Shown here piece by piece: positions 4,197 to 60,085 of a DNA stretch of 64,000 bases; position 1 is the first letter of the stretch, and every line of letters begins with the position of its first letter. Where the stretch lies: the NCBI GenBank assembly GCA_003168335.1, contig PMSM01000002.1:186001-250000 (forward strand), given 5' to 3'. A model generated the notes under the pieces. The model saw only the letters and a program-made list of their open reading frames with translations. It had not been told where the DNA came from and did not search any database. The DNA is from Blastocatellia bacterium (lineage in GTDB: Bacteria; Acidobacteriota; Blastocatellia; Pyrinomonadales; Pyrinomonadaceae). The translations under genes and the position numbers were made by a program.

Positions 4197-5555
4197 CTAC
4201 TTGACTCGGCTGGTTCGGCGGCGCATGAAGTCTATCAAGACAAATTGTGAGAGATTGGCCGGGTTGGCAAAGTAGGCTTTGCCGTTGGTCATCGCGGTCA
4301 TCTGTTTGACGAACTCGACCAGATAGTAATCGCTGGCGAGCATGAAGGTGTTGATCATGATGCCGGCCTTGCGACACGCCTGCACTTCACGAAACGTCGC
4401 TTCCATCACATAAGGATCGCCGCCCATTGAATTCTTGTAGAGTTGCCTGGTTACAGAACCCGGAGCGGTAGCGACGGGGTTCCGCCCACGCGATGAGCGA
4501 TTCGCGCCGGAAAACGCAGCGGCTTGGCTTCCTTCCAGAAAACACGCGGTCGGTTTCCCGTCGGTGATCATCACAATCTGTTTCATGTCTTTGCGTTGCG
4601 CTTGCAGAATCCGCCGGGCCAGCCGCAGACCTTCCGCCGTGTTCGTGTGATAAGGCCCAACCTGTGTGGTGGCGAGTTTCGCCAGCGGCAACTCTTCCGC
4701 GCTGTCGTGGAACAGCACGATCTTCAACGAATCACCCGGATACTGCGTCCTGATCAAATGACCGAGCGCCAGCGCGACTTTCTTTGCCGGGGTAAAACGA
4801 TCTTCGCCGTAGAGAATCATCGAGTGCGAGCAGTCAAGCATCACCACGGTCGCACACGACGATTGATAATCGCACTGATGAACATGCAGGTCGCTATATT
4901 CGAGATTCAGCGGCACCGTTAATCCTTCGCGTTGAATCGCCGAAAGCAGCGTGGTGTTTACATCGAGATTGATCGTGTCACCGAATTCATAAGGCTTGCT
5001 GGCGGATTCGGCTTCGACGCCGGTGGCCAGGTGCAACGTGTCGTGACGGCCGAGCGAACTCTTGCCCAAACTTCCGAGCAGACCGCGCAACGTTTTATAG
5101 CCGAGAAAATCCAATCCTTTCTCGGTAACTTCGAACTTGATATTGCGCGGCAGAGGTTCTTCGATCTGTCCTTCTCCCTGCCCACGCATCATCTCTCGCC
5201 GCTGCTCTGAGGTCTGCGGTTCTTCATGCAGTGTCAGGTAACCCTCTTCGACCAAACGCTCGATTAGTTGATTCAGCATTTCCTGCAGCTGCGAGCCTTC
5301 GTACTTGCCTTCGTTCTCGTCGAGCATCTGCTGAATCTGATGTTGACTGAGCAGCTCCTGATCAACCAGCGCTTGTAACAGCGCGTGCCGCAACGCATCG
5401 AGCGAGGTGTCCTGCGGCGTGCGTTGTCGCGTCCAGTAGTAATCGTCGTCGTAACCGGAAGAGAGCAGGGAATCAGACAGACCTTCCATCAGGTCGCCGA
5501 GATTGATCCCGAAGACGTCGAGGCCGTTGAATTTTCCGTAGCGAGTGAAACGCAT
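4197..5555 (-). CDS. VWA-domain protein, partner of the adjacent AAA+ ATPase
   Basis: A 452-aa cytoplasmic protein, with helical regions at 50-165 and a von Willebrand A domain from about 232 to the end. The metal-ion-dependent adhesion site is intact: D241-x-S243-x-S245, a Thr near 304 and 'TDGKP' at 331-335. It lies downstream of a MoxR/Mg-chelatase-type ATPase on the same strand, the classic pairing in which the ATPase remodels targets presented by the VWA partner (as in RavA-ViaA). Residues of about 357-371 ('[13 protein letters not shown]') are the translation of a family D repeat, so a mobile palindrome arm appears to be fixed inside the VWA fold between two helices. What the pair acts on is not visible. 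Confidence 0.85.
4448..4483. repeat. Family D repeat arm inside the VWA coding sequence
   Basis: The sequence AACCCGGAGCGGTAGCGACG matches the family D arm found between this gene and the ATPase (5591-5688). It is in frame and adds about 12-15 residues. Confidence 0.7.
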
Positions 5556-7289: not shown

Positions 7290-7510
7290 GAACCATGAGG
7301 CCCGGAGGGCCGATAGTAAATAGCCACGGCCGTGAGGCCGTGGATCATCAAGAAAGGGAAATTGTGAGCGCCGCAGGTGCGGCACGTTTTGCCCGCCACG
7401 GGAAGGTGAAGGCGTGCCGGCCCTTCGGGCCTCGGACCAGGGACTCGGTACATTCACCCCGCCCTTCGGGGCTATTGAATTCCAGCCCTTCGGGCCTCGG
7501 GCTTCTAATC
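7290..7510. repeat. Palindromic repeat cluster (family A-like)
   Basis: Several small stems in tandem (GGCCCGGAGGGCC, CACGGCCGTGAGGCCGTG, GCCCTTCGGGCC repeated three times). It fills the gap between the NUDIX-MBL stop and the ATPase start; no gene is visible here. Confidence 0.7.
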
Positions 7511-7518
7511 GCTGAACT

Positions 7519-9138
7519 TCACTTAGGAACATACTGGTTGGGCTTGGCCTGCACTGCTAATCCATCCATCACCAGCTTCTCCAAATGCGCCAGCACCGCG
7601 CGCTCGGCCATGGCGTGCGCCTGCGGAGGAACATCGGTGTAGACACGAACGACGATTTCCTTTGGAGTCGAGGCGCCTTCGCGTACCGCCGTGAGAATCA
7701 GCTCCTCACGTTGCAGACGGTGGGTGATGTACTCATCGATCTTCTGATATGGATTCGCGATCGCCGGCCCGTGTCCGCCAAACAAGACCGATAGGTCCGG
7801 CAGTGCGCGCATTTGTTTGAGCGAGTCGAGATAGTCCCGCATGTTGCCTTCCGGCGGATCTATCAAGACCGAACCAAATCCGACTATGTTGTCCCCCGAA
7901 AGCAGCGCGCCCGTTTGTTCGTCATAAAAGCAAAGATGTCCGCGCGCGTGTCCGGGTGTGTAGAGCGCGCGCAGCTTGATCGAAGGCCCGCCATTGAACT
8001 CCAGCACTTCGTCAGCTTCGATGTAGCGATCGACTGTGACCTGGTTCTTTAGTGATTCAGCAGTCAAACGGTGGGCGGCCACTGAAACGCGTGCGCCATA
8101 CTTCTCCTGCAAATGATCGTTGAGCGCATTTATGCCGGCGACGTGATCCGGGTGGACATGTGTGAGGACAATCTCGCGCACCGTCCTTCCCCCGGCCCTT
8201 TCCCCGCCAATTAGATCATCTACGCAGTCTGCCAACGCTCGTTGCTCGTCTTCATAAGGCGAACCGGGATCGATAATCAGGATCTCGCTTGAGTTGTAAA
8301 TCAAATAGCAGTTGGTGTGCGTCGCCGGCGGCAAGGTGTTCGTGCGCACGGGAAAGCAGATGTAGTGAGGAAGAAACTCGATGCGGCGTGTTGGCTCGCG
8401 ACGCGCCTGCGGCACAGAGAGAAATCTTTCGACCAGATCGTCAGTCAACCCGCCCGCCAAAGTCTTCAATGCGTGCAGCACTGGCGGCACAACGATCACT
8501 TCACTGCGCTCCCACTTCGCATAAGCGTCGCGAGCGGCCACCCATTCGCCGCTTTCCAACTCAGAATCCGGAGTGACAGTAGGCGGCTGTTTCGCTGGAC
8601 ACTTAGCGAGAAAGAACCAGGTATCGAATCTGCGCGGAGCAAACGGCGGCGTGACCCAGCGGCCTACAAAAGTAAAGTCCCCGGCATCCAGATGCAAACC
8701 GTAATGTCTTAACAGTTCAGACCACGTCATGCGCTTTGATTCCAAATCATCAAACAGCGAAGTACGCTGGCCGGTGGTCAATGTTTGGGAGCCGCGCGCG
8801 AGCAACACGCCGACTTCTTCGAATAGTTCACGGGCGGCGCAACTGATCATCGGGGCACGTTCCTGGTCGTCGCAGTTCTCAACCCGGGCTTCGGCGTCGT
8901 TTGTTTCCAACTGACCGCCGGGAAAGGCCTGGAAGCCGCCGAGAAAAACGAGCTTTGTGCTGCGCTTTGCCAGGAAGACTTCCGCGTTGTTGGGATCGGT
9001 GTCAGGACGAAGGAGGATGACGGCAGCGGCGTCTTTGGGAGTCGCGATTCTCTGCTGGGATTGAGTCACCTGTTTACTGGGAGCACGGACGTCTCGTCCG
9101 CACAGCGAACGAAGTTCGCTTATGTCTTTGGCCAACAT
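7519..9138 (-). CDS. NUDIX hydrolase fused to metallo-beta-lactamase-fold hydrolase (LACTB2-like)
   Basis: A fusion of two hydrolase domains. The N-terminal NUDIX domain (about 30-230) shows 'GGFQAFPGGQLE' and, after an insertion, 'ARELFEEVGVLL', the split Nudix box typical of NUDT19-type enzymes. The C-terminal part (about 250-480) is a metallo-beta-lactamase fold with the metal ligands 'THVHPDHVAG', related to LACTB2-like nucleases or thioesterases, and ends in a winged-helix-like tail. The ATG at 9138 lies inside a family F palindrome and the first 20 residues ('LCGRDVRAPSKQ') are its translation. An in-frame GTG at 9069 is an alternative start just before the NUDIX fold. Neither has a good Shine-Dalgarno. 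Substrates are unknown; CoA or nucleotide derivatives are plausible. Confidence 0.85.
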   Translation of the reverse strand: MLAKDISELRSLCGRDVRAPSKQVTQSQQRIATPKDAAAVILLRPDTDPNNAEVFLAKRSTKLVFLGGFQAFPGGQLETNDAEARVENCDDQERAPMISCAARELFEEVGVLLARGSQTLTTGQRTSLFDDLESKRMTWSELLRHYGLHLDAGDFTFVGRWVTPPFAPRRFDTWFFLAKCPAKQPPTVTPDSELESGEWVAARDAYAKWERSEVIVVPPVLHALKTLAGGLTDDLVERFLSVPQARREPTRRIEFLPHYICFPVRTNTLPPATHTNCYLIYNSSEILIIDPGSPYEDEQRALADCVDDLIGGERAGGRTVREIVLTHVHPDHVAGINALNDHLQEKYGARVSVAAHRLTAESLKNQVTVDRYIEADEVLEFNGGPSIKLRALYTPGHARGHLCFYDEQTGALLSGDNIVGFGSVLIDPPEGNMRDYLDSLKQMRALPDLSVLFGGHGPAIANPYQKIDEYITHRLQREELILTAVREGASTPKEIVVRVYTDVPPQAHAMAERAVLAHLEKLVMDGLAVQAKPNQYVPK

Positions 9139-9209
9139 CAGCTAAGACGCGAAACAAAGAGCCATTCGCGCTTCGCGCTCAGTGCGGACGGGACGTCCGC
9201 GGTCCCAGG
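9075..9209. repeat. Family F palindromic repeat
   Basis: Arms CTGGGAGCACGGACGTCTCG and GACGGGACGTCCGCGGTCCC flank a variable middle that contains a smaller GCGCTTCGCGC stem. The right end abuts the stop codon of the sulfite-oxidase-like gene. The same element recurs at 15319, 16234, 55747 and 59032. Confidence 0.85.
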
Positions 9210-9210
9210 A

Positions 9211-11826: not shown

Positions 11827-14800
11827 ATGACTTTCTCGAAACGATTCGTTTCACTGCTACTGATCTATTGCTTTGTCGTGGCCATTGCCCCGCATTCGCG
11901 GGCGGCGGTCCCGGAGGGCAATCCACTCACCAATACGTCCCAGAGCGCCGCCGGGGATTCATCCGTGATCACCAGGGTGTCCGACTTTCTGTCATCAATG
12001 TTTTCTGCTCGCGCAAATTCTGCTGCCGGCGATGAAGCGACAGACGGGAAAGAAGGCTTGCGCTTTCGTCTGAGCGAAGCGCCCGGCCAGCCCGAAGCGC
12101 GGCCGATAAGCAAAGTTGCCAACGCCATGCCACTTTCAGACGCCGAGACCCAGGCGATCCTGCAACGCCTGCCGCCAATCAAGACCGATGCGAGCGACGA
12201 AGCGGATTTCGCGCTGCGAGAGAAATCGCTGCCGCCTCCACGCACCGGTGACGTAATCAAGCAGACGTTTCCGGCGCCCAGCGAGATGACCAGGCCCGAC
12301 CAAACGACGGCCGCGGCGCTCGAAGTCCTTCGCTATTCTCCCGAAGGCGAAGTGCCGATCGCGCCTAACCTCAGCGTCACATTTTCACAACCGATGATCG
12401 CCGTCAGTTCACAGGAAGAAGCGGCTGAGTACGTTCCCGTTAAGTTGTCGCCACAACCACCGGGCAAATGGCACTGGATCGGCACGAAGACACTTCTCTT
12501 CGAACCAGACGTTCGATTTCCCATGGCCACGCAGTATTCCGTTACCGTACCGGCCGGCACAAAGTCGGCCAACGGCGGATCGATCGCAGTTCCGAAAACA
12601 TGGACCTTCACGACGCCACCGCCGACGGTGAAGACTTTCTATCCAACTAAAGCCAGCGTGCAGCGACGTGACGCGTTGATGTTTGCTGAGTTCGACCAGC
12701 GCATCGATCCGGCAGCGGTTTTGCGAAATGTAAGAGTTGAAGCGGGAAACGCCCGGGTCCCGGTGCGATTGGCGACTGCGGAAGAGATTGCGAAGGACGA
12801 CGAGGTGCGACCGCTCGCGCAACGCGCTGAGAAAGATCGTTGGCTCGGGTTCCGTGCGGTCGATGCAAACGGCAAAACAGAAAAGGCGTTGCCAGCCGGT
12901 TCCAGCATCGATGTTTCGATCCTTGCTGGTACGCCGTCAGCGGAAGGCTCGCTCGTGACGAAGCAAGCGCAGAATTTTCCCTTCATGACTTTCGGTCCGC
13001 TGCGTCTGGTTAAAAGCCAATGCAATTACAATCCGAGGATCCCGTGCACGCCCAACGATAATTGGTTGATTGAATTCAGCAACCCACTCAACCTGGAAGC
13101 GTTCGACGCCGCGCAGATTCGCGTGGAGCCGGCGAGCGATCAATTGAAACCCAGTATCTACGGCAACACGATTTACCTGGCCGGCACCAAGAACCCAAAT
13201 ACGACTTACCACGTTACGATCGACAAATCGCTCCGCGATCGCTTTGACCAGACTCTCGGCAAGGATGAAACCGTTGAGTTCAAAGTTGGAGCGGCGCAGC
13301 CGTGGCTGAGCTTGTCCGGCCAGGGCTTTGTCGTGCTTGATCCAGCCGGGCCGCGCCAGCTTTCGCTTTACAGCCTGAATTACACGACCGTGAAAGTCGC
13401 TTTGTATGCAGTCGGGCCGGAAGACTGGATCAAATACAATAGTTATCGACTGTTGCGCTCTCGCTACTCGTCGCAGCCAATAGGAAGAAACGCAAATCCT
13501 CCCGGCCGCGCCGTCTTTTCAAAGCAGATCGATCTCAAATCGAATCCGAATGAGATGGTTGAGACAGTTATCGATCTCACCCCGGCCCTGAAAGACGGAT
13601 TAGGCCAGGTGATCGTGGTGATTGAATCGATCGCGCCGGCGAGCGACACGTATCACACTCCGCTGCTGGCCTGGGTGCAATCGACGAAGATTGGCCTCGA
13701 TGCCTTTGTCGATAACGACGATTTGGTCGGTTGGGCCACTTCATTGGCCGAGGGCGCGCCGCTCAGCGATGTCCAGATGCAAGTCCTGCCGTCAGGAATT
13801 GAAGGAACGACCGGCAGTGATGGCGTGGCGCATCTGGCCTTAAAGCCTGCGTCCGATTCTTCACCCAACGTGCTGGTCGCGCGCCGCGGCAATGACGTGG
13901 CGATTCTTCCTGAGAACGCGGACAGCTGGTGGGCCACGACCGGCGCCTGGTATCACAAACCGCAGACCGATGCACTGCGCTGGTATGTCTTCGATGACCG
14001 CAAGCTCTATCGCCCGGGCGAAGAAGTCCACCTCAAAGGTTGGATTCGCCGCGTCGGCGCCGGTAAGGGCGGCGACGTTGGGCCGTTGAACGGCGCACTG
14101 AAGCGCCTAAGTTACTCAGTCAAAGACCAGGTCGGCAGCGAAGTCGGTAAAGGCGAGTTGACCCTCAATATCTTCGATGGTTTTGACACTGCTTTCAAAC
14201 TTCCCCCGACGATGAATCTTGGCAACGCAACCGTCGAATTCAAGACGCAGGGCGCCGAGGGCCAGTTCAATGAACGTGGATACCGCCATAGTTTTCAAGT
14301 GCAGGAATTTCGCCGGCCTGAGTTTGAAGTGACCGCGAAAACTGAAACCGAAGCGCCACTGTTTGTCGGCGGCCGCGCTGACGTCTCGGTGGCGGCTAAT
14401 TATTTTGCCGGCGGCGGGCTGCAAAACACCGAGGTCAAGTGGCAAGTGACTTCAAAGCCGACGAACTTCACCCCGCCTAACCGTGACGATTACACGTTCG
14501 GCAAATGGGTTCCGTGGTGGATTGATGAGAGCGACAACGAAGACAGTAAGGCCCAGGAGTTGACCGGACGCACCGACGCGGCCGGCAAGCATCGCCTGCG
14601 GATTGATTTCGATTCGGTAAAGCCGGCGCGTCCCGCGACCGTGACGGCCCAAGCCAGCGTCACGGATGTTAACCGGCAGACATGGACTTCGACGGCGACG
14701 ATGCTGGTGCATCCGGCGGATCTTTATGTCGGACTGAAAAGCGAAAAGACTTTTGTGCAGCCGGGCGAGCCTTTGGTCGTGCAATCAATCGTCACCGATC

Positions 14801-17800
14801 TCGATGGCAAGGCCATCGCCAATCGCGAAGTGAAGATGCGCGCGGTGCTGCTCGATTGGCAGCAAGTCAAAGGCGAATGGAAACAGGTCGAAGTCAATCC
14901 ACAGGACTGTCTAATTCAATCAGGATCCGACCCCGTAAAATGCACGTTCGCGTCGAAACAGGGCGGCATGTATCGCGTGGCAGCAACGATTCGCGACGAT
15001 CGCGGACGCGCGAATGAAAGCGAGCTGACACTGTGGGTCGCGGGCGGCAAGCGGCCGCCGAAACGCGGCGTCGAAGAAGAGAAGGTCGAGTTAATTCCGG
15101 ATCATAAAGAATACAAGGCCGGCGACACGGCGCAGATTCTGGTGCAAGCGCCATTCTATCCGGCGGAAGCAGTGATGAGCCTGCGGCGATCCGGCATCGT
15201 GAAGACTGAACGCTTTCGCATGGATGGACCAACGTACACGCTGAAGGTGCCGATTGACGAAGCATGGACGCCGAATGTGCACGTGCAGGTTGATCTGGTG
15301 GGGGCGGAGGATCGTGATGCCGGGAGCGCGAACGTCCCGTCCGCTCCTTCGGCATCACCAAAATCTGTTCGCGCTGGCGCGCTCAATGCGGACGGGACGT
15401 CCGCGCTCCCAGCAAAGCGACCTGCGTATGCCAGTGGGGAGTTGAATCTTTCGATTCCGCCGCTCACGCGCAAGCTGAATGTCACGGCCACGCCGCGCGA
15501 AAAGACACTCGAACCCGGCGGCAACAGCGTCATCAACGTCGAAGCCAAAGACGCGAACGGCAAACCGGTGAGCGGCGGCGAGGTTGCCGTCGTTGTGGTT
15601 GATGAGTCAGTGCTGGCTTTGACGAATTACAAGCTGGACGATCCGGTTACTATGTTCTATGCGGACAGGAGCAGTGACACGAGCGACTATCATTCGCGAA
15701 AGAGTACCCTCCTCTCAGCGGGTGGCGTTGGGCTTGGTTTCGGTGCCGGGAGAGGCGGCGCACTTATGGAGAGGGTGAACGTGTCGGCCGAGTACAGCAA
15801 TAACTTCTCAGCGAAACAAATTGCTGACCTGCCTGTAAGCGGACGACGTTTCCAAGACTTTGCGCTGCCGAGTCCGACGCCAAAGCCGGGCGCCAGCGAA
15901 CCGAAAGAGATCCGTCTGCGCGAAAACTTCAACGCCCTCGCCGTCTTTTCTCCTTCCGTCCGCACGGATGCAAATGGTCGAGCGCAGGTGCAAGTGAAGC
16001 TGCCCGACAATCTCACTCGTTATCGCGTGATGGCTGTTGCGGTTGCAGGTGGAAAGCAGTTTGGAACGGGCGAGTCAGCGATTACCGCGCGCTTGCCTTT
16101 GATGGCGCGACCGTCCGCGCCTCGTTTTCTTAACTTTGGCGATCGCTTTGAACTGCCGATCGTTTTGCAGAATCAAACTGATCAGGCAATGACAGTTGAT
16201 TTGGCGGTACGCGCGACGAATGCGCAACTTGGTGCTGGGAGCGCGGACGTCTCGTCCGCTTCTTCTGCACCACGAGGAAATATTCGCGCTGGCGCGCTCA
16301 ATGCGGACGGGACGTCCGCGCTCCCAGCAGAAAGTCGCGCGCTTCCAGCGAACGCGTTGTCGCAGACTGGTCGCCGTGTGACCGTCCCGCCCAACGATCG
16401 CGTCGAGATTCGCGTTCCCGCCGCCGCAGTCAAAGCAGGCACGGCCCGTTTCCAGATCGGGGCGGTGTCCGGGCGTTGGTCTGACGCCGCGAATGTCGAG
16501 GTGCCGGTGTGGACTCCCGCAACGACCGAAGCGTTCGCCACCTATGGCGAGATCGACAACGGCTCAATCAATCAACCGGTCAAGGCGCCGGCGAATGTCT
16601 GGCCGCAATTCGGCGGGCTGGAAATTGAAACTTCTTCGACGCAATTGCAGGAGCTGACCGATGCGGTGATCTATCTCACCAGCTATCCGTACGAATGTTC
16701 TGAGCAGCTTTCGTCGCGCATCATTACGATCGCTGCGTTGCGCGACGTGCTGACGGCATTCAAAGCGAAAGACCTGCCATCAGCCGGTGAGATGGAAGCG
16801 GCGGTAACCCGCGATTTGAAACGCTTGCAGGGCATGCAGAATAGCGATGGCGGCTTTGGTTTCTGGCAGCGCGGTAACGAATCGTGGCCCTACCTGAGCA
16901 TTCACGTGGCGCACGCGCTGGCGCGCGCGAAACAGAAAAAATTCGACGTGCCGCCGGAAATGTTCGAACAGTCGCGGAAGTATCTGCGTGAAATCGAGTC
17001 GCACATTCCTGCTTACTACGGCGTCGACGCGCGGCACGCGATCATTGCTTACGCGCTTTACGTGCGCGCGCAGATGGGCGACCGCGACGCAGCGCGGGCC
17101 CGCAAGCTGATTGCCGAGGCAGGTCTGGAAAAGCTTTCGCTCGAGTCGGTGGGTTGGCTGCTGTCGGTTTTGTCAGCCGACAGCGGTTCAGTCAGCGAAG
17201 TCGCGGCGATCCGTCACCTGCTCAACAATCGCGTCACGGAAACAGCCGGCACGGCGCACTTTGTCTGCTCATACAGCGACAGCGATTATCTGGTGCTGAA
17301 TTCCGATCGGCGCGCCGACGGCGTCATCCTCGAAGCGCTGATCGGCGATCAGCCAAACAGCGATCTGATTCCGAAGATCGTGCGCGGCTTGCTCGGGCAT
17401 CGGACGCGCGGGCGTTGGGAGAATACGCAGGAGAACGTCTTCATCCTGCTGGCGCTCGATCGTTACTTCAATGCTTTTGAAAAGATAACACCCAACTTCG
17501 TAGCTCGGGCGTGGTTGGGTGAACGCTTCGCGGGCGAGCAGCAGTTCAAAGGACGCTCGACGGATCGCCAGCAAGTCAACGTGCCGATGCGTTATCTGGC
17601 GGACCAGGGCGGCGCGCAAAATCTGATCATCAGCAAAGACGGCGCGGGCCGACTTTACTATCGCATCGGGATGAACTATGCGCCCATCGATCTGAATTTG
17701 CAGCCGGCCGATTACGGCTTCACGGTCGCACGCAGCTACGAAGCGGTGGACGATCCGAAAGACGTATCGCGCGCTGCCGACGGCACGTGGCACATCAAAG

Positions 17801-18207
17801 CCGGGGCGCGAGTGCGCGTGCGCCTGACGATGGTGGCGACGGCGCGGCGCTATCACGTGGCTCTGGTCGATCCTCTGCCGGCCGGGTTCGAAGCGCTGAA
17901 TCCCAGCTTAGCGACGACGGGCAGCATTCCGCGGGACGACAAGCAAACTGGCGTCGGGGAATTCGGTAGTCGCTCATATGGTTATGAATGGTACCGTTGG
18001 CGGCCTGAATGGTTCGAGCATCAGAACCTGCGCGACGAGCGCGCCGAAGCTTTCACTTCGCTGCTGTGGGAAGGCGTGTACAAATATTCCTACGTGGCCC
18101 GCGCGACCACGCCGGGCGAGTTTGTGGTGCCCCCGCCGAAGGCCGAAGAGATGTACCATCCGGAAACTTTTGGCAGAGGGAAGACGGATCGCGTGAAGAT
18201 TGAATAA
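11827..18207 (+). CDS. Giant bacterial alpha-2-macroglobulin with thioester motif
   Basis: A 2126-aa secreted protein. The ATG at 11827 has TTTGGAGG 5 nt upstream and opens a type I signal peptide ending near Ala27; there is no lipobox, unlike E. coli YfhM. An Ig-like domain and MG repeats fill about 100-1250. The bait/ANA region is near 1280-1370, followed by the A2M domain ('LRENFNALAVFSPSVRTDANGRAQV'). The thioester motif Cys-Ser-Glu-Gln starts at Cys1624 in 'SYPYECSEQL', followed by the thioester alpha-barrel ('MQNSDGGFGFWQRG') and receptor-binding domain. The family traps proteases covalently. No penicillin-binding protein PbpC is adjacent. Two family F repeats are translated in frame, and a motif like a TonB-receptor plug sits in the bait region. 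Confidence 0.93.
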   Translation: MTFSKRFVSLLLIYCFVVAIAPHSRAAVPEGNPLTNTSQSAAGDSSVITRVSDFLSSMFSARANSAAGDEATDGKEGLRFRLSEAPGQPEARPISKVANAMPLSDAETQAILQRLPPIKTDASDEADFALREKSLPPPRTGDVIKQTFPAPSEMTRPDQTTAAALEVLRYSPEGEVPIAPNLSVTFSQPMIAVSSQEEAAEYVPVKLSPQPPGKWHWIGTKTLLFEPDVRFPMATQYSVTVPAGTKSANGGSIAVPKTWTFTTPPPTVKTFYPTKASVQRRDALMFAEFDQRIDPAAVLRNVRVEAGNARVPVRLATAEEIAKDDEVRPLAQRAEKDRWLGFRAVDANGKTEKALPAGSSIDVSILAGTPSAEGSLVTKQAQNFPFMTFGPLRLVKSQCNYNPRIPCTPNDNWLIEFSNPLNLEAFDAAQIRVEPASDQLKPSIYGNTIYLAGTKNPNTTYHVTIDKSLRDRFDQTLGKDETVEFKVGAAQPWLSLSGQGFVVLDPAGPRQLSLYSLNYTTVKVALYAVGPEDWIKYNSYRLLRSRYSSQPIGRNANPPGRAVFSKQIDLKSNPNEMVETVIDLTPALKDGLGQVIVVIESIAPASDTYHTPLLAWVQSTKIGLDAFVDNDDLVGWATSLAEGAPLSDVQMQVLPSGIEGTTGSDGVAHLALKPASDSSPNVLVARRGNDVAILPENADSWWATTGAWYHKPQTDALRWYVFDDRKLYRPGEEVHLKGWIRRVGAGKGGDVGPLNGALKRLSYSVKDQVGSEVGKGELTLNIFDGFDTAFKLPPTMNLGNATVEFKTQGAEGQFNERGYRHSFQVQEFRRPEFEVTAKTETEAPLFVGGRADVSVAANYFAGGGLQNTEVKWQVTSKPTNFTPPNRDDYTFGKWVPWWIDESDNEDSKAQELTGRTDAAGKHRLRIDFDSVKPARPATVTAQASVTDVNRQTWTSTATMLVHPADLYVGLKSEKTFVQPGEPLVVQSIVTDLDGKAIANREVKMRAVLLDWQQVKGEWKQVEVNPQDCLIQSGSDPVKCTFASKQGGMYRVAATIRDDRGRANESELTLWVAGGKRPPKRGVEEEKVELIPDHKEYKAGDTAQILVQAPFYPAEAVMSLRRSGIVKTERFRMDGPTYTLKVPIDEAWTPNVHVQVDLVGAEDRDAGSANVPSAPSASPKSVRAGALNADGTSALPAKRPAYASGELNLSIPPLTRKLNVTATPREKTLEPGGNSVINVEAKDANGKPVSGGEVAVVVVDESVLALTNYKLDDPVTMFYADRSSDTSDYHSRKSTLLSAGGVGLGFGAGRGGALMERVNVSAEYSNNFSAKQIADLPVSGRRFQDFALPSPTPKPGASEPKEIRLRENFNALAVFSPSVRTDANGRAQVQVKLPDNLTRYRVMAVAVAGGKQFGTGESAITARLPLMARPSAPRFLNFGDRFELPIVLQNQTDQAMTVDLAVRATNAQLGAGSADVSSASSAPRGNIRAGALNADGTSALPAESRALPANALSQTGRRVTVPPNDRVEIRVPAAAVKAGTARFQIGAVSGRWSDAANVEVPVWTPATTEAFATYGEIDNGSINQPVKAPANVWPQFGGLEIETSSTQLQELTDAVIYLTSYPYECSEQLSSRIITIAALRDVLTAFKAKDLPSAGEMEAAVTRDLKRLQGMQNSDGGFGFWQRGNESWPYLSIHVAHALARAKQKKFDVPPEMFEQSRKYLREIESHIPAYYGVDARHAIIAYALYVRAQMGDRDAARARKLIAEAGLEKLSLESVGWLLSVLSADSGSVSEVAAIRHLLNNRVTETAGTAHFVCSYSDSDYLVLNSDRRADGVILEALIGDQPNSDLIPKIVRGLLGHRTRGRWENTQENVFILLALDRYFNAFEKITPNFVARAWLGERFAGEQQFKGRSTDRQQVNVPMRYLADQGGAQNLIISKDGAGRLYYRIGMNYAPIDLNLQPADYGFTVARSYEAVDDPKDVSRAADGTWHIKAGARVRVRLTMVATARRYHVALVDPLPAGFEALNPSLATTGSIPRDDKQTGVGEFGSRSYGYEWYRWRPEWFEHQNLRDERAEAFTSLLWEGVYKYSYVARATTPGEFVVPPPKAEEMYHPETFGRGKTDRVKIE
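15319..15413. repeat. Family F repeat inside the macroglobulin gene, copy 1
   Basis: A 95-nt element, GCCGGGAGCGCGAACGTCCC to GACGTCCGCGCTCCCAGC, read in frame as 'AGSANVPSA...NADGTSALPA'. It lies between MG-type domains at about residues 1165-1197. Its inner sequence 'CGCGCTGGCGCGCTCAATG' is shared with copy 2. Confidence 0.9.
16234..16328. repeat. Family F repeat inside the macroglobulin gene, copy 2
   Basis: Also 95 nt, GCTGGGAGCGCGGACGTCTC to ACGTCCGCGCTCCCAGC, read in frame as 'AGSADVSSA...NADGTSALPA' at about residues 1470-1501. It is closer to the intergenic consensus than copy 1, suggesting a younger insertion or a local duplication. Confidence 0.9.
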
Positions 18208-23746: not shown

Positions 23747-23815
23747 AGCACCGCACGGTTTCGCGTTCGCAGCAAAGACCTGGCGGGGAGTAGCCCGCCG
23801 CTGGACAGTCGAGTG

Positions 23816-26332
23816 ATGCTTACTGCCGGCACAAAACTCGGCCGCTATGAGATCCGCTCGCAACTCGGCGCGGGCGGCATGGGCGAGGTCTATCTCGCGG
23901 AGGACACCAAGCTCGGGCGCAAGGTTGCGCTCAAGACCTTGCCGGCGGAATTCACCAACGACAAAGAAAGACTGCGCCGCTTTCAGATGGAAGCTCGCGC
24001 CGCCTCAGCCCTGAATCATCCAAACCTCCTCACCATTCACGAAATTGGCGCTGAGAGTGGCGCGCATTTTATCGCGGCCGAGTATGTCGACGGCGAAACG
24101 TTGCGGACGCGATTGAAGCCAGGGCGCATGAAGATCGATGACGCTCTGGACGTGGCGCAGCAGACGGCATTTGCACTCACGGCAGCGCACGGCGCGGGAA
24201 TCCTGCATCGCGATATCAAGCCGGAAAACATCATGGTGCGTCACGACGGCATCGTGAAGGTGCTCGATTTCGGTTTGGCCAAACTGCTGGAAGATCGGGC
24301 TCGCGAAATGATCGACCACGAAGCCGACACCCGCGCTCTGGTGCTGACTGATCCCGGCAGAGTGCTCGGCACTCCGGCATACATGTCGCCTGAGCAGGCC
24401 CGCGGGCAGGATCTGGATGCGCGCACCGACATTTGGAGTTTGGGCGTCGTGCTGTACGAGATGGTCGCCGGACGCGCGCCCTTTCGGGGCGAGACCAGGA
24501 GTCACACCGTAGTTTCAATTCTGGAAACTGAGCCCGCGCCACTCGCGACCCTCGCGCCGGACGCGCCGGCTGAGTTGCAACGCATCGTTCGCAAAGCTTT
24601 GACCAAGGATCGCGACAGTCGCTATCAAACCGCCCGTGACTTGATGAATGATCTAAAGAGCCTGCGCCGCGATCTCGATATTCAATCAGAGATGCGACGT
24701 TCCAGCGCGCCCGAGATCAGCGACCCTGACTCCGCTGTAAACCAGAAGTTCCCGGCAAAGGATTCGGACGGCGCGGCCTCAGAACAGGCGACCAGTCTGG
24801 CCGAACCGGGCCCGACGCGCAGCGACGGCCAGCCCCCCGAAGGGTCCATTCGTTACCGGATAGGAGCGCTGCTTGCGATGTTGATTCTGGCTGGGGGCGC
24901 CCTGGGTGCCTGGTATTACTTTCAGCGACAAACCGCGCGAGTGACTGCCGATTCAATTAATTCAATCGCCGTAATGCCGTTCGTAAATGCGAGCAACGAT
25001 CCCAATACCGAATACTTTTCCGACGGCATAACCGAAACCATCATCAACAGTCTCTCTCAACTGCCGCATAAAAAGATTCTCGCCCGCACCACAGTATTTC
25101 GCTACAAAGGACGAGATGCAGATCCGCAGAAGGTCGGTAACGAACTCGGGGTTGACGCCTTGTTGACCGGAAGAGTCACTCAGCAGGGTGACACCCTGAC
25201 GATTCAAGCCGATCTCGTGCGCGTCTCCGACGGATCAGAGTTGTGGGGTGGCCGGTATAACAAGAAACTGGCCGACATCTTTGCGGTGCAAAACGAGATC
25301 GCCAACGAGATCTCAGAGACGCTGCGCTTGAAGTTGAACAGCGATGAGCAGAAACGCGTGACCAATCACTCCACGGACAACGTTGAAGCTTACCAGCTCT
25401 ACCTGAAAGGCAAATTCGAGGCTAATAAGTTCACGCCTGAAGGATTGGGAAAAGGCATCGAATACTTCAATCAGGCAATTGCCATCGATCCTACTTACGC
25501 ATTGGCCTACGCGGGACTATCCGACCTGTATATCGCCCAGGCACACGTATTTGTCCCGCCAAAGGAAGGCTATGCCAAAGCGAAGTGGGCCTCAGAAAAA
25601 GCAGCGCAATTGGATGACACCCTGGCCGAGGCGCATGAAGCTTTAGGATCGGTCAAGCTCTACTCGGATTGGGATTTTCCGGCTGCCGAAAGAGAATTCA
25701 AGCGGGCTATTGAACTCAACCCAAACTATTCCGAGGCCCACTCAAACCTAAGCTGCAAGTTCAAAGCGCTGAGACGGTATCCGGAAGAAATTGCGGAAGC
25801 CCGCCGCGGGCAGGAGCTTGATCCGCTTTCGGCGTTTGCCAACATGGAGTTGGGTGAAGCGTTCTACCAGGCGCGCCGGTACGACGAAGCGATAGTGCAA
25901 ATCAAAAAGACTCTTGAATTAGACCCGCATTTTTTCGTTACCTATCACGTCGGCGCACGGACCTATGAGCAGAAGAAAATGTATCCGGAAGCGATTGCAA
26001 ATTGCCAGGAGTGGTTGAAGATGTTTCACGATGACCCTAATGCTCTGGCATCGCTCGGGCACGTGTATGCGACGATGGGTAAGCGCCGCGAGGCGGAAGA
26101 CATAATCGGCAAATTGCTGGAGATCTCCAAACAGCGTTATTTCTCGCCCTACTGGATTGCTGTGGTCTATGCAGGTCTCGGTGACAACGATCAAGCGTTT
26201 CAATATTTCGAGAAGGCTTTCGAGGATCGCTACTTCCTGATGATCTGGATCAATAGCGATCCGCGTTTTGACAACATCCGATCGGACCCGCGCTTCGCGG
26301 ACCTGGTGCGGCGGGTAGGTCTGCTGCAGTGA
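23816..26332 (+). CDS. Transmembrane Ser/Thr protein kinase with FlgO-like and TPR domains
   Basis: An 838-aa Pkn-type kinase. The catalytic domain covers about 7-270: 'LGAGGMGEVYLAED', 'VALKTLP', 'HRDIKPENIM', 'VLDFGLAKL' and 'SPEQARG', all catalytic residues present. After a disordered linker, one membrane helix lies at about 345-365. The outer part starts with 'IAVMPFVNASNDPNTEYFSDGI', the domain found after pCadC-type sensors and in TolB/FlgO-like regions, then TPR repeats from about 520 to the end ('AIAIDPTYALAYAGLSDLY'). It would bind a partner outside and signal inside. It begins at an ATG at 23816, with a GTG one codon earlier. No linked phosphatase is visible. Confidence 0.92.
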   Translation: MLTAGTKLGRYEIRSQLGAGGMGEVYLAEDTKLGRKVALKTLPAEFTNDKERLRRFQMEARAASALNHPNLLTIHEIGAESGAHFIAAEYVDGETLRTRLKPGRMKIDDALDVAQQTAFALTAAHGAGILHRDIKPENIMVRHDGIVKVLDFGLAKLLEDRAREMIDHEADTRALVLTDPGRVLGTPAYMSPEQARGQDLDARTDIWSLGVVLYEMVAGRAPFRGETRSHTVVSILETEPAPLATLAPDAPAELQRIVRKALTKDRDSRYQTARDLMNDLKSLRRDLDIQSEMRRSSAPEISDPDSAVNQKFPAKDSDGAASEQATSLAEPGPTRSDGQPPEGSIRYRIGALLAMLILAGGALGAWYYFQRQTARVTADSINSIAVMPFVNASNDPNTEYFSDGITETIINSLSQLPHKKILARTTVFRYKGRDADPQKVGNELGVDALLTGRVTQQGDTLTIQADLVRVSDGSELWGGRYNKKLADIFAVQNEIANEISETLRLKLNSDEQKRVTNHSTDNVEAYQLYLKGKFEANKFTPEGLGKGIEYFNQAIAIDPTYALAYAGLSDLYIAQAHVFVPPKEGYAKAKWASEKAAQLDDTLAEAHEALGSVKLYSDWDFPAAEREFKRAIELNPNYSEAHSNLSCKFKALRRYPEEIAEARRGQELDPLSAFANMELGEAFYQARRYDEAIVQIKKTLELDPHFFVTYHVGARTYEQKKMYPEAIANCQEWLKMFHDDPNALASLGHVYATMGKRREAEDIIGKLLEISKQRYFSPYWIAVVYAGLGDNDQAFQYFEKAFEDRYFLMIWINSDPRFDNIRSDPRFADLVRRVGLLQ

Positions 26333-33067: not shown

Positions 33068-33275
33068 ACGCTGAAGGCGTGAAATGTAATAGCCAGGGGC
33101 AACGCCCCTGGATCGGATTCGTTGGAATCCCTGAGCCCTGGAAGGGCGACATAGCTCGTCGACGCAACCTCTCACGATCGCATTTCGCGCCTTCAGCGCT
33201 CACACATTCTTAACAAACGTCAAACCCGGGGCGCTGCCCCGGGCTATTGCATTTCGCGCCGTTGGCGCTTAGGAG
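33068..33275. repeat. Family A palindromic repeat cluster
   Basis: CACGCTGAAGGCGTGAAATG and AGGGGCAACGCCCCTG on the left, CGCGCCTTCAGCGC, CCGGGGCGCTGCCCCGG and GCGCCGTTGGCGC on the right. 'GTGAAATGTAATAGCC' is identical to the copy at 30358. No gene in this gap. Confidence 0.8.
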
Positions 33276-34354: not shown

Positions 34355-34685
34355 TTTTGTGGAGTGCGCCGGCCCCAGCTTAGGCCCGAAGGGCCGGCAC
34401 TCTATGGCATGCAATGTCATCAGTCATTGCTTTTGTGCCGCACCTTCGGTGCTCATTCGTCTTGACACCGTTCTGATCCACGCCCTTACGGGCGTGGCTA
34501 TTGCATGTCGGCCCTTCGGGCCTGCAGATGTTAGTGAATTGGCGCAAAGAATTTTTCGACGCGCTACGACTTTCGTAATCAATGAGACTTGTGCAGAGGT
34601 TCCTTCAGTTTGTCGCTTACTTGTACTACAGGCTGCCAGCCTGTAGTGACTCGCCGTGCACAGGCTGGCAGCCTGTGCTACTCAA
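34355..34685. repeat. Mixed palindromes (family A-like and family H)
   Basis: The gap 34309-34944 holds GAGTGCGCCGGCC facing GGCCGGCACTC (34362-34402), the pair CACGCCCTTACGGGCGTG, GGCCCTTCGGGCC, and a family H element at 34622-34684 with CTACAGGCTGCCAGCCTGTA and GCACAGGCTGGCAGCCTGTG. From 34686 to 34944 I see no convincing gene. Confidence 0.7.
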
Positions 34686-36354: not shown

Positions 36355-36392
36355 ACTCAGATGCCGGCCCAATGTCCCGGGCTTATCCTTCG

Positions 36393-39305
36393 ATGACTCT
36401 TGTAGCAGGCGCAAAACTCGGTCGTTATGAAATCCGCTCGAAGATTGGCGCGGGCGGCATGGGCGAAGTTTATCTGGCCCATGATACGGAGCTTGAACGC
36501 GATGTTGCTTTGAAAATTCTCGCCGGTGATGTCACTGCCGACCAACAGAGAATGCAGCGCTTCATTCAGGAGGCGAAGGCTGCTTCGGCGTTGAATCATC
36601 CCAACATCATCACGATCTATGAAGTGGGACAGGCCGAAGGGCAGCGCTTCATCGCCACCGAATACATCAAAGGTGAAACGCTGCGCCAACGCCTGTGGCG
36701 CGAACCGTTGTCTCTCCTTGAATGTTTTGCGGTCGCGGTGCAGGTTGCCGCCGCACTCTCGGCGGCGCACGAAGCCAAGGTGGTTCATCGCGACATCAAG
36801 CCGGACAACATCATGCTCCGGCCTGATGGTTTGGTGAAGGTGCTGGACTTCGGCCTGGCGAAGTTGACTGAGAAAGTAACGAGCGCGCCATCATCCGACC
36901 CGGACGCAGCCACCCGTCTGCAAATCAACACGGCTCCGGGTCTGGTCATGGGTACGGTCAACTACATGTCGCCGGAACAAGCCCGCGGCAAAGAAGTTGA
37001 CGCGCGCACGGACATCTGGAGTTTCGGCGTGTTGCTTTACGAGATGGTGACCGGTCACATGCCGTTTCTCGGCGAGATCACCAGCGATGTCATCGCTGCT
37101 ATCCTGAAGAGCGAACCCGCGCCGCTCACGTTTTACGGGCCCGATATGCCTCTGGAGTTGCAGCGCATAACCCGGAAGGCGCTCCGAAAAGAACGCGACG
37201 AACGCTATCAAACGGTCAAAGACCTGCTGCTTGATTTGAAAAGCTTACAGCGCGAGTTGGAGTCGGCGGCTGAGATGGAACGCTCCGTCGCGCTACCACA
37301 ATCGACAGGTCAGTTGCCGGCCACAACCGCGAATTCTGCTGCCGGCACGTCAATGCCGTCACCACCGGCGCACTCAACTTCAAGCGCCGAATACATTGCT
37401 ACCGAAATCAAACGGCACCAGCGGAAATTTCTTCTTGCTCTGATCGTGCTGGTCGCCGCATTCATTCCGCTCGCCTATCTTGCTTACAAATATCTGCCGC
37501 GCTTTCAGTCTGCGCGACCGTCACCGCAACGCGCGCTCTCGCGCCTGACTTACGATCCCGGCTTGCAAAGCGAACCCACGTGGTCGCCCGACGGGCGCTT
37601 CATTGCCTACAGTTCAGATCGCAGCGGCAACTTTGATATTTGGATCAAGCCTGTAGGTGAAGGCGATCCGATTCAAGTGACAAAGTCACCAGCCCACGAT
37701 TGGCAGCCTGACTGGTCACACGATGGACAACACATAGTCTTTCGCTCGGAACGCGATCAGGGCGGTCTGTACATCGTGCCGGCCTTTGGCGGCAATGAGC
37801 GCAAAATCTCGTCCTTCGGTTATCGGCCGCGCTGGTCGCCGGATGGATCCCGGATTCTGTTTTTCAGCGCGGCCACCCGGAACTCCGTAGTGCCGCCCAA
37901 GGTCTATGTGGTCGAACTCGACGGATCCCCACCCCGCGAAGTCCTGTCGGACAAATTGACCGAGTTCACCGGGCGCGTGGAGATTGATTGGCATCCTGAT
38001 GGTCAGCGACTCTCAATCTGGGGTGATCACAAACAACAGGGCCTGGTGTTTTGGACAGTGCCGGTAACCGGTGGCGCGCCGGTAAAGTCGGAAATTATTT
38101 CTGAGGTGGACAAACAACGACACGAGCTTGGCGTTGATCTGTTCGATTTTCGATGGTCGCCGTCGGGGCGAACCCTCTATTTTGAAGGCGTCTCTCAGGG
38201 CGTGAGAAACCTCTGGAAGGTAGAGGTTGAGCCGCAGACGTTGCGTTGGATCGCGGGCCCCGAACGCCTGACCACCGGCGCCGGGCTTGATACCGACGTT
38301 GCACTTTCTTCCGATGGCAAAAGGCTGGCTTTCGTTACCCGCACGGAGCACACCAGGATCTGGTCACAGCCGTTCAATGCGGTGATCGGGCAACTCACCG
38401 GCACAGCGCAGCCAATAACTTCAGCCGAAGCTAATGCGGTTGCATGCGACCTCACTCGCGATGGCAAGAAGCTGGTTTTTACTGCTGAGCGCGCCGGAAA
38501 GTATGAGCTCCGAGTGAAGTCGTTTGAAGACGGAAGCGAGACGGTGCTGCTGGTCTCTGATAAATTTCCTCTCTTTTCACCGGTATGGTCGCGCGACGGC
38601 TCTCGCATCGTCTACGGCCGCGACCGCCCGCCGAGTCCGGAGCGCGCCGGGTTTTCACAGGCCGCCGCGCACAGCATCGCTATGATCTCCGCCAAAGGTG
38701 GAGAAGAGCAATCACTCACTTCGCTGCACCTGTTGCAGGGCTGGCCCTGGGATTGGACTGCTGATCAGGAAAGTATCGTGGCCAGTTCCCGCCGTCAGTC
38801 CAATGATCGCTGGGGCCTCTACCTGTTTCCGGTTGCAGCTGCGCCGAATGCGGAAAACCAGGCGCGCCTGCTTACTGAGCGCCCGGGATACCATGCCTTC
38901 GGTGGGCGTTTCTCTCCTGATGAGCGCTGGATAGCATTGGTCGGGGCCAGCGCCACGGATGAGGCGGACCGACAGGTTTACGTCGTGCCGGCGACCGGCG
39001 GAGAGTGGACCAACATCTCCGGAGAGGGATTCAGAAGCGGCGAGGCGCACTGGTCACCAGACGGACGGGTAATCTATTTCTCCTCAAATCGATCCGGCTT
39101 TACCAACCTATGGGGGAGACGATTCGATCCACAGACGGGTAAACCAATAGGTGACGTGTTTCGCGTAACCAGCCTCGAAAGTCCCGGGCAGATGATTTCG
39201 CATGGTATCGCCGGCTCGCGCTTCTCAGTTGCCACTGATCGCCTGGTAACGCAGATCACTGAAGCCTCGGGGAGTGTTTGGATCCTGGACAGCGTGGATC
39301 GTTAG
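36393..39305 (+). CDS. Transmembrane Ser/Thr protein kinase with TolB-like beta-propeller
   Basis: A 970-aa kinase; the ATG at 36393 matches the start of its paralogs, while 36372 adds seven codons. The kinase domain (about 10-275) is complete: 'GAGGMGEVYLAHD', 'VALKIL', 'HRDIKPDNIM', 'VLDFGLAKL', 'SPEQARGK'. A single membrane helix is at about 345-367 ('LLALIVLVAAFIPLAYL'). The outer 590 residues are WD40/PD40 blades of the TolB type, each with the consensus W-SPDG-x-I-Y ('PTWSPDGRFIAYSSDRSGN', 'PRWSPDGSRILFF', 'HWSPDGRVIYFSSNRSG'). The propeller should bind a protein or ligand outside. This is a very frequent architecture in Acidobacteriota. Confidence 0.93.
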   Translation: MTLVAGAKLGRYEIRSKIGAGGMGEVYLAHDTELERDVALKILAGDVTADQQRMQRFIQEAKAASALNHPNIITIYEVGQAEGQRFIATEYIKGETLRQRLWREPLSLLECFAVAVQVAAALSAAHEAKVVHRDIKPDNIMLRPDGLVKVLDFGLAKLTEKVTSAPSSDPDAATRLQINTAPGLVMGTVNYMSPEQARGKEVDARTDIWSFGVLLYEMVTGHMPFLGEITSDVIAAILKSEPAPLTFYGPDMPLELQRITRKALRKERDERYQTVKDLLLDLKSLQRELESAAEMERSVALPQSTGQLPATTANSAAGTSMPSPPAHSTSSAEYIATEIKRHQRKFLLALIVLVAAFIPLAYLAYKYLPRFQSARPSPQRALSRLTYDPGLQSEPTWSPDGRFIAYSSDRSGNFDIWIKPVGEGDPIQVTKSPAHDWQPDWSHDGQHIVFRSERDQGGLYIVPAFGGNERKISSFGYRPRWSPDGSRILFFSAATRNSVVPPKVYVVELDGSPPREVLSDKLTEFTGRVEIDWHPDGQRLSIWGDHKQQGLVFWTVPVTGGAPVKSEIISEVDKQRHELGVDLFDFRWSPSGRTLYFEGVSQGVRNLWKVEVEPQTLRWIAGPERLTTGAGLDTDVALSSDGKRLAFVTRTEHTRIWSQPFNAVIGQLTGTAQPITSAEANAVACDLTRDGKKLVFTAERAGKYELRVKSFEDGSETVLLVSDKFPLFSPVWSRDGSRIVYGRDRPPSPERAGFSQAAAHSIAMISAKGGEEQSLTSLHLLQGWPWDWTADQESIVASSRRQSNDRWGLYLFPVAAAPNAENQARLLTERPGYHAFGGRFSPDERWIALVGASATDEADRQVYVVPATGGEWTNISGEGFRSGEAHWSPDGRVIYFSSNRSGFTNLWGRRFDPQTGKPIGDVFRVTSLESPGQMISHGIAGSRFSVATDRLVTQITEASGSVWILDSVDR

Positions 39306-55703: not shown

Positions 55704-55746
55704 AAGAGGCAGTCGCGTTTTCAATTGAGCTGGGAGGCCAGATGAT

Positions 55747-55864
55747 GCTGGGAGCGCGGACGTCTCGTCCGCATAGCTTGCGAAGCACGCTCCGCCTGAG
55801 TCTTTCGCGCACCCGAGTTTTCGCGCTTCGCGCTCACAGCGGACGGGATGTCCGCGCTCCCAGC
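55747..55864. repeat. Family F palindromic repeat
   Basis: GCTGGGAGCGCGGACGTCTC and GACGGGATGTCCGCGCTCCC, 118 nt in all, with an inner TTCGCGCTTCGCGC stem. It lies between the sigma-factor and kinase genes and may attenuate or stabilise the mRNA. Confidence 0.85.
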
Positions 55865-55894
55865 AAGCACAGTCTTTAAATCGGCGACTTTTCT

Positions 55895-59029: not shown

Positions 59030-60085
59030 TTGCTGGGAGCGCGGACGTCTCGTCCGCACAGCGAGCCCATCTCGCCTGGTTCTTTTGCCTTACGCCTCAG
59101 TGCGGACGAGACGTCCGCGCTCCCGGCAGCAAGGGGCGCCACAGCGCAGGATATCGACAAACTGAAGTTTGTCGGACATAGTTTCAGCGTGCGCGCCCTC
59201 CGCGACATTCACATTGGTCCTGCCGGTTGGTCTTATGCTGACTGGCGCGGGCGGGTCTATCCCGAAGGCGCCGGCGCTAAGTTCGATACGCTGGATCTGG
59301 TCGCGAAATACTTCGATGCGGTTGAAATAAATAGCAGTTTCTATCGCCCACCTTCGCCCGCTACTGCCAGGTCGTGGCTGCGACGCATTCAGCACAATCG
59401 GGACTTTATCTTCACGGCGAAACTTTACCGAACGTTTACGCATGAGCGCGGCAAAGCCACCATTGACGACGAGAAGGTATTTCGCGAAGGCATCGATCCG
59501 CTCGTGGAAGCAGGGAAGCTGGGCGCGGTGCTGATTCAGTTTCCCTGGTCGTTCAAGAATGATCGCACAGAGCGCAGTTACCTCAATCAACTTTGCGAGC
59601 GCTTCAAAGATTATCCGCTGGTGGTTGAGTTGCGGCATGAATCATGGAACAAGCCGAGAATCCTGCAAACGCTGGAAGATCTCGGTGTGGGTTTGTGCGA
59701 CATCGACCAGCCGCTGTTCGCTAATTCGATCAAGCCTTCGGCGGAAGTAACTTCGTCAATTGGTTATGTGCGATTGCACGGGCGAAACTATCAGAACTGG
59801 TTTCGCGAAGAAGCGGACGCGGTTGAGCGTTATGACTATTTGTATTCGCGCGATGAGTTAGAGCCGTGGGTCGAGCGCATCAAGCAGGTTTCAGAGAAAG
59901 CGAAAGAAACCTTTGTCATTACCAACAACCACGCGCGCGGGCAAAGCCTGGTCAACGCCTTCGAAGTGTTGGCGCTGCTGGAAGAGAAGCGAATGCCGGG
60001 ACCTGCAAAGTTGATAGAGAGTTATCCGCGTCTGAGCGAGTCGGTCGAGGCGGACGATGAATCACCGCAGCGGGAGTTGTTCTAG
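59030..60085 (+). CDS. DUF72 TIM-barrel protein
   Basis: The DUF72 domain is clear: 'IHIGPAGWSYADWRGRVYPEG', 'DAVEINSSFYRPPSPATARSW', 'FIFTAKLYRTFTHERG', 'GAVLIQFPWSFKNDRTERSYL', 'YPLVVELRHESW' and 'YVRLHGRNYQNWFREEADAVERYDYLYSRDEL'. It is a TIM barrel whose activity is unknown; structures resemble sugar isomerase or endonuclease IV-type barrels. The first ~30 codons from 59030 ('LGARTSRPHSEPIS' to 'DETSALPA') are the translation of a family F repeat, so the true start is probably later, near the GTG at 59189. Then the protein has about 299 aa, closer to the family norm. Confidence 0.88.
   Translation: MLGARTSRPHSEPISPGSFALRLSADETSALPAARGATAQDIDKLKFVGHSFSVRALRDIHIGPAGWSYADWRGRVYPEGAGAKFDTLDLVAKYFDAVEINSSFYRPPSPATARSWLRRIQHNRDFIFTAKLYRTFTHERGKATIDDEKVFREGIDPLVEAGKLGAVLIQFPWSFKNDRTERSYLNQLCERFKDYPLVVELRHESWNKPRILQTLEDLGVGLCDIDQPLFANSIKPSAEVTSSIGYVRLHGRNYQNWFREEADAVERYDYLYSRDELEPWVERIKQVSEKAKETFVITNNHARGQSLVNAFEVLALLEEKRMPGPAKLIESYPRLSESVEADDESPQRELF
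59032..59130. repeat. Family F palindromic repeat at the DUF72 5' end
   Basis: GCTGGGAGCGCGGACGTCTC and GACGAGACGTCCGCGCTCCC. It extends the DUF72 reading frame upstream without a stop codon, as family F copies do elsewhere. Confidence 0.85.

Follow-up and report, generated by a model that had tools for sequence, protein, structure and literature searches.

Palindromic repeats read in frame within an alpha-2-macroglobulin-like gene and other protein genes of a Blastocatellia bacterium

The host gene, its inserts and the palindrome family

A gene for an alpha-2-macroglobulin-like protein (A2M) lies at 11827..18207 on the forward strand of the 64,000 nucleotides (nt) of Blastocatellia contig PMSM01000002.1 analysed here (hereafter the window), and it carries two palindromic inserts that are read in frame as part of the protein. 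The gene was assigned from its open reading frame (ORF), its translation, its Pfam matches (bMG10, A2M_BRD, A2M, MG2 and bMG5, with bMG3 under its cut-off) and the structure 4u48 (YfhM). ATG 11827 was assumed as the start; the open frame begins at TTG 11776. Insert 1 occupies 15318..15414 and insert 2 occupies 16233..16329, both on the forward strand. The original prediction of two 95-nt palindromes had their positions right, and each is 2 nt longer, 97 nt, when both 27-nt arms are counted in full. The inserts are 87% identical to each other and, as had been predicted and as translation confirms, are free of stops in the host frame, encoding the peptides AGSANVPSAPSASPKSVRAGALNADGTSALPA and AGSADVSSASSAPRGNIRAGALNADGTSALPA. 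Folding as single-stranded DNA, compared with shuffled sequences, gave z = -5.6 for insert 1 and z = -8.7 for insert 2. Insert 1 corresponds to about residues 1181-1213 of the translation, within the A2M_BRD match (1105-1282), and insert 2 to about residues 1486-1518, C-terminal to the PF00207 match (1390-1476). The same expanded loop that holds insert 2 has extra codons at 16330..16365 (+), encoding ESRALPANALSQ, which are absent from short-loop orthologues in the alignment.

Both inserts match the intergenic family to which they had been assigned; near-identical arms occur at dozens of places outside genes. Members of the family consist of two inverted 27-nt arms, each with the core GCGGACG-TCY-CGTCCGC (a 7-bp stem and a 3-nt loop), and a variable interior, in which two smaller hairpins are usually present. 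The usual order, judged by eye, is arm, GCGTGC GAA GCACGC-type hairpin, spacer, GCGC TTC GCGC-type hairpin, arm. With up to 3 mismatches, the 17-nt arm core matched 17 times in the window, at 10 places, where 0.59 matches were expected; the core is nearly symmetric and can match both strands, so matches outnumber places. With up to 2 mismatches, the 5.16-Mb genome gave 72+66 = 138 matches against 0+1 for the reversed control. The presence of the family is therefore not a matter of chance.

The census of the genome drew on 100 of 138 and 100 of 119 matches, plus a few extra, and covered 123 arm positions at 78 places. The resulting list of 80 copies, from 60 stretches of the genome and the window, comprises 60 two-arm copies and 20 single arms. 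The limit was 8 mismatches for arms in general and 6 for single arms, and three of the single arms, with 6 mismatches, are marginal. Full copies are 88-219 nt long, and 55/60 fall within 97-150 nt. Eight copies (L079, L080, L082, L090, L092, L124, L131 and L136) have near-identical spacers and lie within a larger repeat bounded by the inverted sequences GGTACTGGTTCAGTTT...AAACTGAACCAGTACC.

Five copies of the family (L089, L102, L111, L116 and L123) contain a nested palindrome unrelated to it, GTCGAGCACCCC...GGGGACCCCGCAC. By eye it occupies the identical point of the arm in all five, which suggests site-specific insertion of one palindrome into another.

Absence from orthologues and use within genes

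The A2M gene was compared with 29 orthologue loci, drawn from the genomes of 52 relatives with a match, and 27 of these loci cover each insert site. At site 1, 26/27 orthologues are without the insert, and only the congener G001 keeps a decayed remnant, NADGMSALPA. At site 2, none of the 27 has this insert; 23 have a short loop, and different long inserts occur in G001, G045, G049 and G013. Because the orthologues are without them, save for the remnant in G001, the A2M inserts are lineage-specific insertions. Similarly, the insert found in PurL occurs in 0/80 named orthologues (those kept of 592). The inserts are thus missing from distant orthologues of the macroglobulin, and copies of the family are abundant elsewhere in the genome.

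Copies within genes are the minority. Coding calls rested on an open frame and codon bias with hand-set thresholds and may overlap, and by them 489,423/589,401 sampled bases, about 83%, are coding. Only 5/60 full copies are internal to genes (P ~1e-36 against that share), where internal means at least 40 codons with coding-like codon use on each side; single arms were judged by hand. The five full copies lie in A2M (two), the DAO-domain flavin adenine dinucleotide (FAD) oxidoreductase L087, PurL (L114) and the M14 peptidase L102, whose copy contains the nested palindrome. Internal single arms were found in the carbamoyltransferase L077, the MoaD-MoaE fusion L095, the large iron-sulphur protein L098 (two, one near the N-terminus), the MurI-like racemase L088, the GH47 enzyme L132 and L109, a protein without a Pfam match. 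In L093 a single arm lies at the C-terminus of the protein. The conserved hosts PurL and MurI-like racemase still have full-length open frames.

In genes, one reading frame predominates. The frame read as AGSADV(S/P)SA and AD(G/E)TSA(L/V)PA, which consists of small, mostly uncharged residues, is used by 9/12 internal copies (P = 0.004 against one third), or by 8/11 (P = 0.009) when the hand-kept N-terminal arm is excluded, and by all five internal full copies. A length of 1 mod 3 sets both arms in this frame, and it is found in 5/5 internal full copies against 16/55 others (P = 0.004), or against 16/47 (P = 0.008) when the eight copies within the larger repeat are excluded. The remaining frames encode CWERGRLVR, LGARTSRPH, MRTGRPRSQ or CGRDVRAPS. 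We attribute the frame bias of in-gene copies to the loss of insertions in these less tolerated frames, rich in Arg, Cys and Trp. The proposal that the insertions were tolerated as protein linkers, or as loops, is supported; orthologues do without them. Their predicted placement between structural domains holds for PurL, the MoaD-MoaE fusion and A2M site 2; it fails for A2M site 1, which is inside A2M_BRD, and for the DAO-domain oxidoreductase.

The loops that hold these copies are often filled differently in relatives; palindromes among the loop inserts were recognised by visual inspection of alignments, apart from the hairpin test described below. In the DAO loop, 5/11 orthologues have palindromes or repeats (G004, G014, G006, G005 and, at a contig edge, G001) and six are empty; the G006 insert, GGAGTGCGGCGGC..., resembles window repeats D6/D9, and the G005 insert, TTTAGAGGCGGGCG..., resembles window repeat I21. 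The M14 loop is filled in 3/11 orthologues (G001, G004 and G014) and empty in eight. Among 29 orthologue loci, the MurI-like loop is expanded in all five congeners, with a perfect hairpin by eye in four. For PurL, 27 of the relatives' 29 loci cover the loop; G004 and G017 have related palindromes there, and G001, G005, G011, G020 and others have other repeats, inverted by eye, which are not strong hairpins where tested. At A2M site 2, other palindromes or repeats occupy the loop in G001, G045 and G013 among the 27 orthologues; that of G045 reads GTAGTTCCGCC...GGCGGAACTAC, and that of G013 equals window repeat I19 (4454-4480) at 25/27 bases.

A hairpin test of five protein families gave a quantitative measure of this recurrence. 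Strong hairpins, defined by the 5th percentile of windows from the same gene, make up 8/28 inserts of other species in the host loops against 1/32 inserts at other positions of these proteins (P = 0.009). The test covered inserts of at least 10 amino acids lying more than 20 amino acids from an end, in segments of up to 400 nt with at least 50 control windows. Its segmentation divides some inserts, and the PurL inserts of G017 and G011 and the MurI-like inserts of G004 and G006 are among those outside it. Because the hosts were chosen for having a palindrome of their own at the site, the test measures recurrence at known sites and gives no genome-wide rate.

Repeats of other families are also read in frame in long genes. 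The window repeat at 4454-4480 (GGAGCGGTAGCGAC type) is read within ORF 4197-5555 (-) as SSRGRNPV. Further cases lie in L083 at about 330-376 (C2:120397-120443) and in L113 (C9:555511-555571), with GARGSSPT repeated and LSPERDRLKFVG.

Explanations for palindromes within proteins

We consider it probable, at about 0.88, that the inserts are mobile palindromes resembling repetitive extragenic palindromes (REPs) and REPINs, which are mainly intergenic, occasionally enter genes, and are retained in frame in permissive loops that relatives fill differently. Copies would be spread, mostly between genes, by a presumed enzyme, and an occasional copy would enter a gene. Selection would then retain mostly in-frame insertions located in a permissive loop or linker and encoding small, mostly uncharged residues; harmful insertions would be lost and tolerant loops would keep theirs. 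Since permissive loops are few, the same ones would take different palindromes or repeats in different relatives. Comparison of the sequences demonstrates presence and absence, reading frame, position in variable loops and recurrence. From these we infer the mobility of the palindromes, the retained function of the proteins, the filtering by selection and the mobilising enzyme.

Several results weigh against this explanation. In the host loops, 20/28 inserts are not strong hairpins, and among them are the DAO insert of G006 (17th percentile) and the A2M site 2 insert of G013 (32nd), both of which match repeat families of the window. No strong hairpin was found in the 13 PurL linker segments tested (0/13), and this linker therefore also grows by means other than palindromes. 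The internal half copies of L088, L109 and L132 and the C-terminal arm of L093 are read in other frames. Additionally, the coding share of 83% is only approximate, given the hand-set thresholds and possibly overlapping calls, the census is not exhaustive, and the events are partly non-independent, as with the two A2M copies that are 87% alike. Some hosts could be impaired.

The original prediction went further and held that selection has kept the arms free of stops, allowing insertions to become linkers, which we consider very unlikely. The arm is indeed open in all six frames, but so are 65% of dinucleotide shuffles, and on this shuffle test selection of the arms for open frames was rejected. 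The 55 non-internal full copies average 2.76 open frames, fewer than the 3.17 expected with shuffled interiors, and only 16/55 of them have the length that sets both arms in the small-residue frame. Filtering of copies once they are inserted, in permissive loops, is enough to account for the open frames. Less likely still is a reading of the segments as ancestral protein sequence of an ordinary kind, palindromic by chance. The open frame, and the coding-like codons to either side, would fit such an origin; against it, nearly all orthologues examined are without the segments, and near-identical arms occur at dozens of extragenic places and in unrelated proteins.

Rewriting of resident palindromes deserves more weight, and we regard it as possible if somewhat doubtful. 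Each loop would have received one ancestral palindrome, whose stem was later overwritten by gene conversion or restored to symmetry by template-switch quasipalindrome correction, a mechanism that re-symmetrises stems in place. At the MurI-like loop, the genome studied here, G004, G001 and G006 have a common outer flank, GTACCCAG or GCTCCCAG, beside perfect stems that differ, namely GCGGACG (own genome and G004), GCGCGCG (G001) and GCAGGCC (G006); G003 has GCGGGC without the common flank. These differences fit rewriting in place and repeated replacement alike. The stems of G006 and G001 occur only at that locus in the sampled sequence (145 kb for G006, 189 kb for G001), but the samples represent only about 3% of either genome, and G005 has no perfect stem at this loop. 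The M14 and PurL copies of G004 combine an older arm (GCGGACG) with a current arm (GCGGGCG). Older-type arms in G004 are genic in 6/10 cases against 9/34 (P = 0.07, with uneven sampling), or in 6/11 against 9/33 (P = 0.14) once one mismatched arm is reclassed, and on these values an enrichment of old-type arms in G004 genes was rejected. The two A2M copies are the sole pair among the 60 full copies with a common interior, GCGCTGGCGCGCTC, and are mutually the best match among 40 candidates scored; common interiors may, however, derive from the family consensus. Where the repeats are unrelated, as at the loops of DAO, A2M site 2 and PurL, separate insertions are required.

Among the matches listed, relatives abound in related arms whose stems are compensated: GCGGGCG in G014, GCAGGCG with the loop GCT in G017, and both GCAGGCG and GCGGGCG in G004. 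A degenerate arm pattern was found in 48/162 genomes of the class, with zero control matches. In one genome, five related arms follow one another in direct orientation at intervals of 170-171 nt, like a tandem array (G054:C1:449895-450602).

More tentatively, and with the balance tilted against it, some loops in the class (MurI-like, DAO, M14, A2M site 2 and PurL are proposed) may be long-lived docking sites, where other families, or stem-switched versions that still pair perfectly, repeatedly replace or rewrite the resident palindrome. If so, part of the DNA of conserved genes would evolve as mobile palindromes do, with pairing kept while the loop peptide drifts. Close relatives offer a natural series in which the same loop is either empty or occupied by one of several unrelated palindromes or repeats. 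With this series one can test by what route bacterial proteins acquire insertions, and whether REPs within genes are neutral passengers, retained only where they are harmless. It also carries a warning for annotation, as REP-derived peptides (AGSADVSSA..., ADGTSALPA) are encoded within real enzymes.

Three further copies of the family lie in the window. One, at 9075..9210, covers the predicted 5' end of ORF 7519-9138 (-) and contains ATG 9138, the true start being uncertain; another, at 59031..59128, lies at the predicted 5' end of ORF 59030-60085 (+), where the translation start is likewise uncertain. The element had been said to extend both frames; the copies are there, at N-termini whose start codons are uncertain. 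The third, recognised by its arm matches at 55746..55865, is a full-length copy of 120 nt with no long frame through it. At the Rfam gathering score the family elements have no match, and the only matches in the window are three Acido-Lenti-1 RNAs at 7298-7343 (-), 33225-33269 (+) and 34478-34523 (+), the last two overlapping other window repeats. A tandem repeat of CGAACG/CGAATG-like units lies near the window start at 187-270. Three 95-nt stretches at 23814, 35763 and 36394 are 78-84% alike to one of them; two are at the starts of ORFs 23813-26332 and 36372-39305, probably paralogous genes.

Relation to known palindromic elements

REPINs consist of two inverted REPs with a variable spacer, occur in dozens of copies and are mostly intergenic. 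The present family resembles them in having a spacer between two short palindromic arms in inverted orientation, in its many copies, and in the 55/60 full copies that are not internal to genes. The genome has 11 Y1_Tnp genes above cut-off. No arm with up to 3 mismatches was found within the 1.5-kb flanks of the 8/11 Y1-transposase genes examined, and 4/8 of these have other hairpins nearby. A single arm begins 1,519 nt from the Y1 gene at C10:75324, just beyond the examined flank. Within 4 kb (at 1.5-3.8 kb), a family copy accompanies 4/11 Y1 genes (G000 C10:75324, C8:359975, C2:127016 and C9:548416) against 1.4 expected (P = 0.06). This excess is weak, and a transposase of the REP-associated (RAYT) kind is at most a candidate for moving the family.

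Our literature search, which was shallow and covered subscription literature thinly, returned no description of the family and none of inserted palindromes in Blastocatellia, and the available part of PMC12306157 contains nothing on insertions within genes. In-frame intragenic REPs are already known, as described in the accessible sections of PMC3733652, and Rickettsia palindromic elements (RPEs) are a case of them. As far as the excerpts of PMC10969869 and PMC3733652 describe them, RPEs are palindromes of about 150 bp that lie in frame in unrelated genes, including metabolic ones, with the added peptide tolerated, and nearly half are reported in ORFs. A similar process in other prokaryotes was deemed conceivable (PMC10969869, in part). 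The present family shares with RPEs, on these descriptions, both in-frame insertion in protein genes and presence or absence between relatives. It differs in that only 5/60 of its full copies are internal to genes, against nearly half of RPEs in ORFs. Compared likewise by description, it also differs in occurring in Acidobacteriota and in the different repeats that occupy one loop across species.

REPs and REP dimers have been described within conserved genes of several species, and over half of the inserts encode 20-30 amino acids (PMC3733652, in the portions available). The same portions propose that intragenic REPs are neutral, being in flexible linkers or loops, and report different REPs at about one site in recB of X. 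campestris and X. oryzae. They also define the GTAG/CGTC REP super-families by an unpaired GTAG or CGTC (or TGTC/CCTC) at one end. In contrast, and within the limits of that account, the present arm is without GTAG and has its CGTC inside the paired stem (by eye), and same-loop recurrence here covers several genes and species. The present case is of this known kind, with a new family and a more extensive pattern: the family is without the GTAG/CGTC tags, it occurs in the Acidobacteriota, and recurrence in the same loops is wider.

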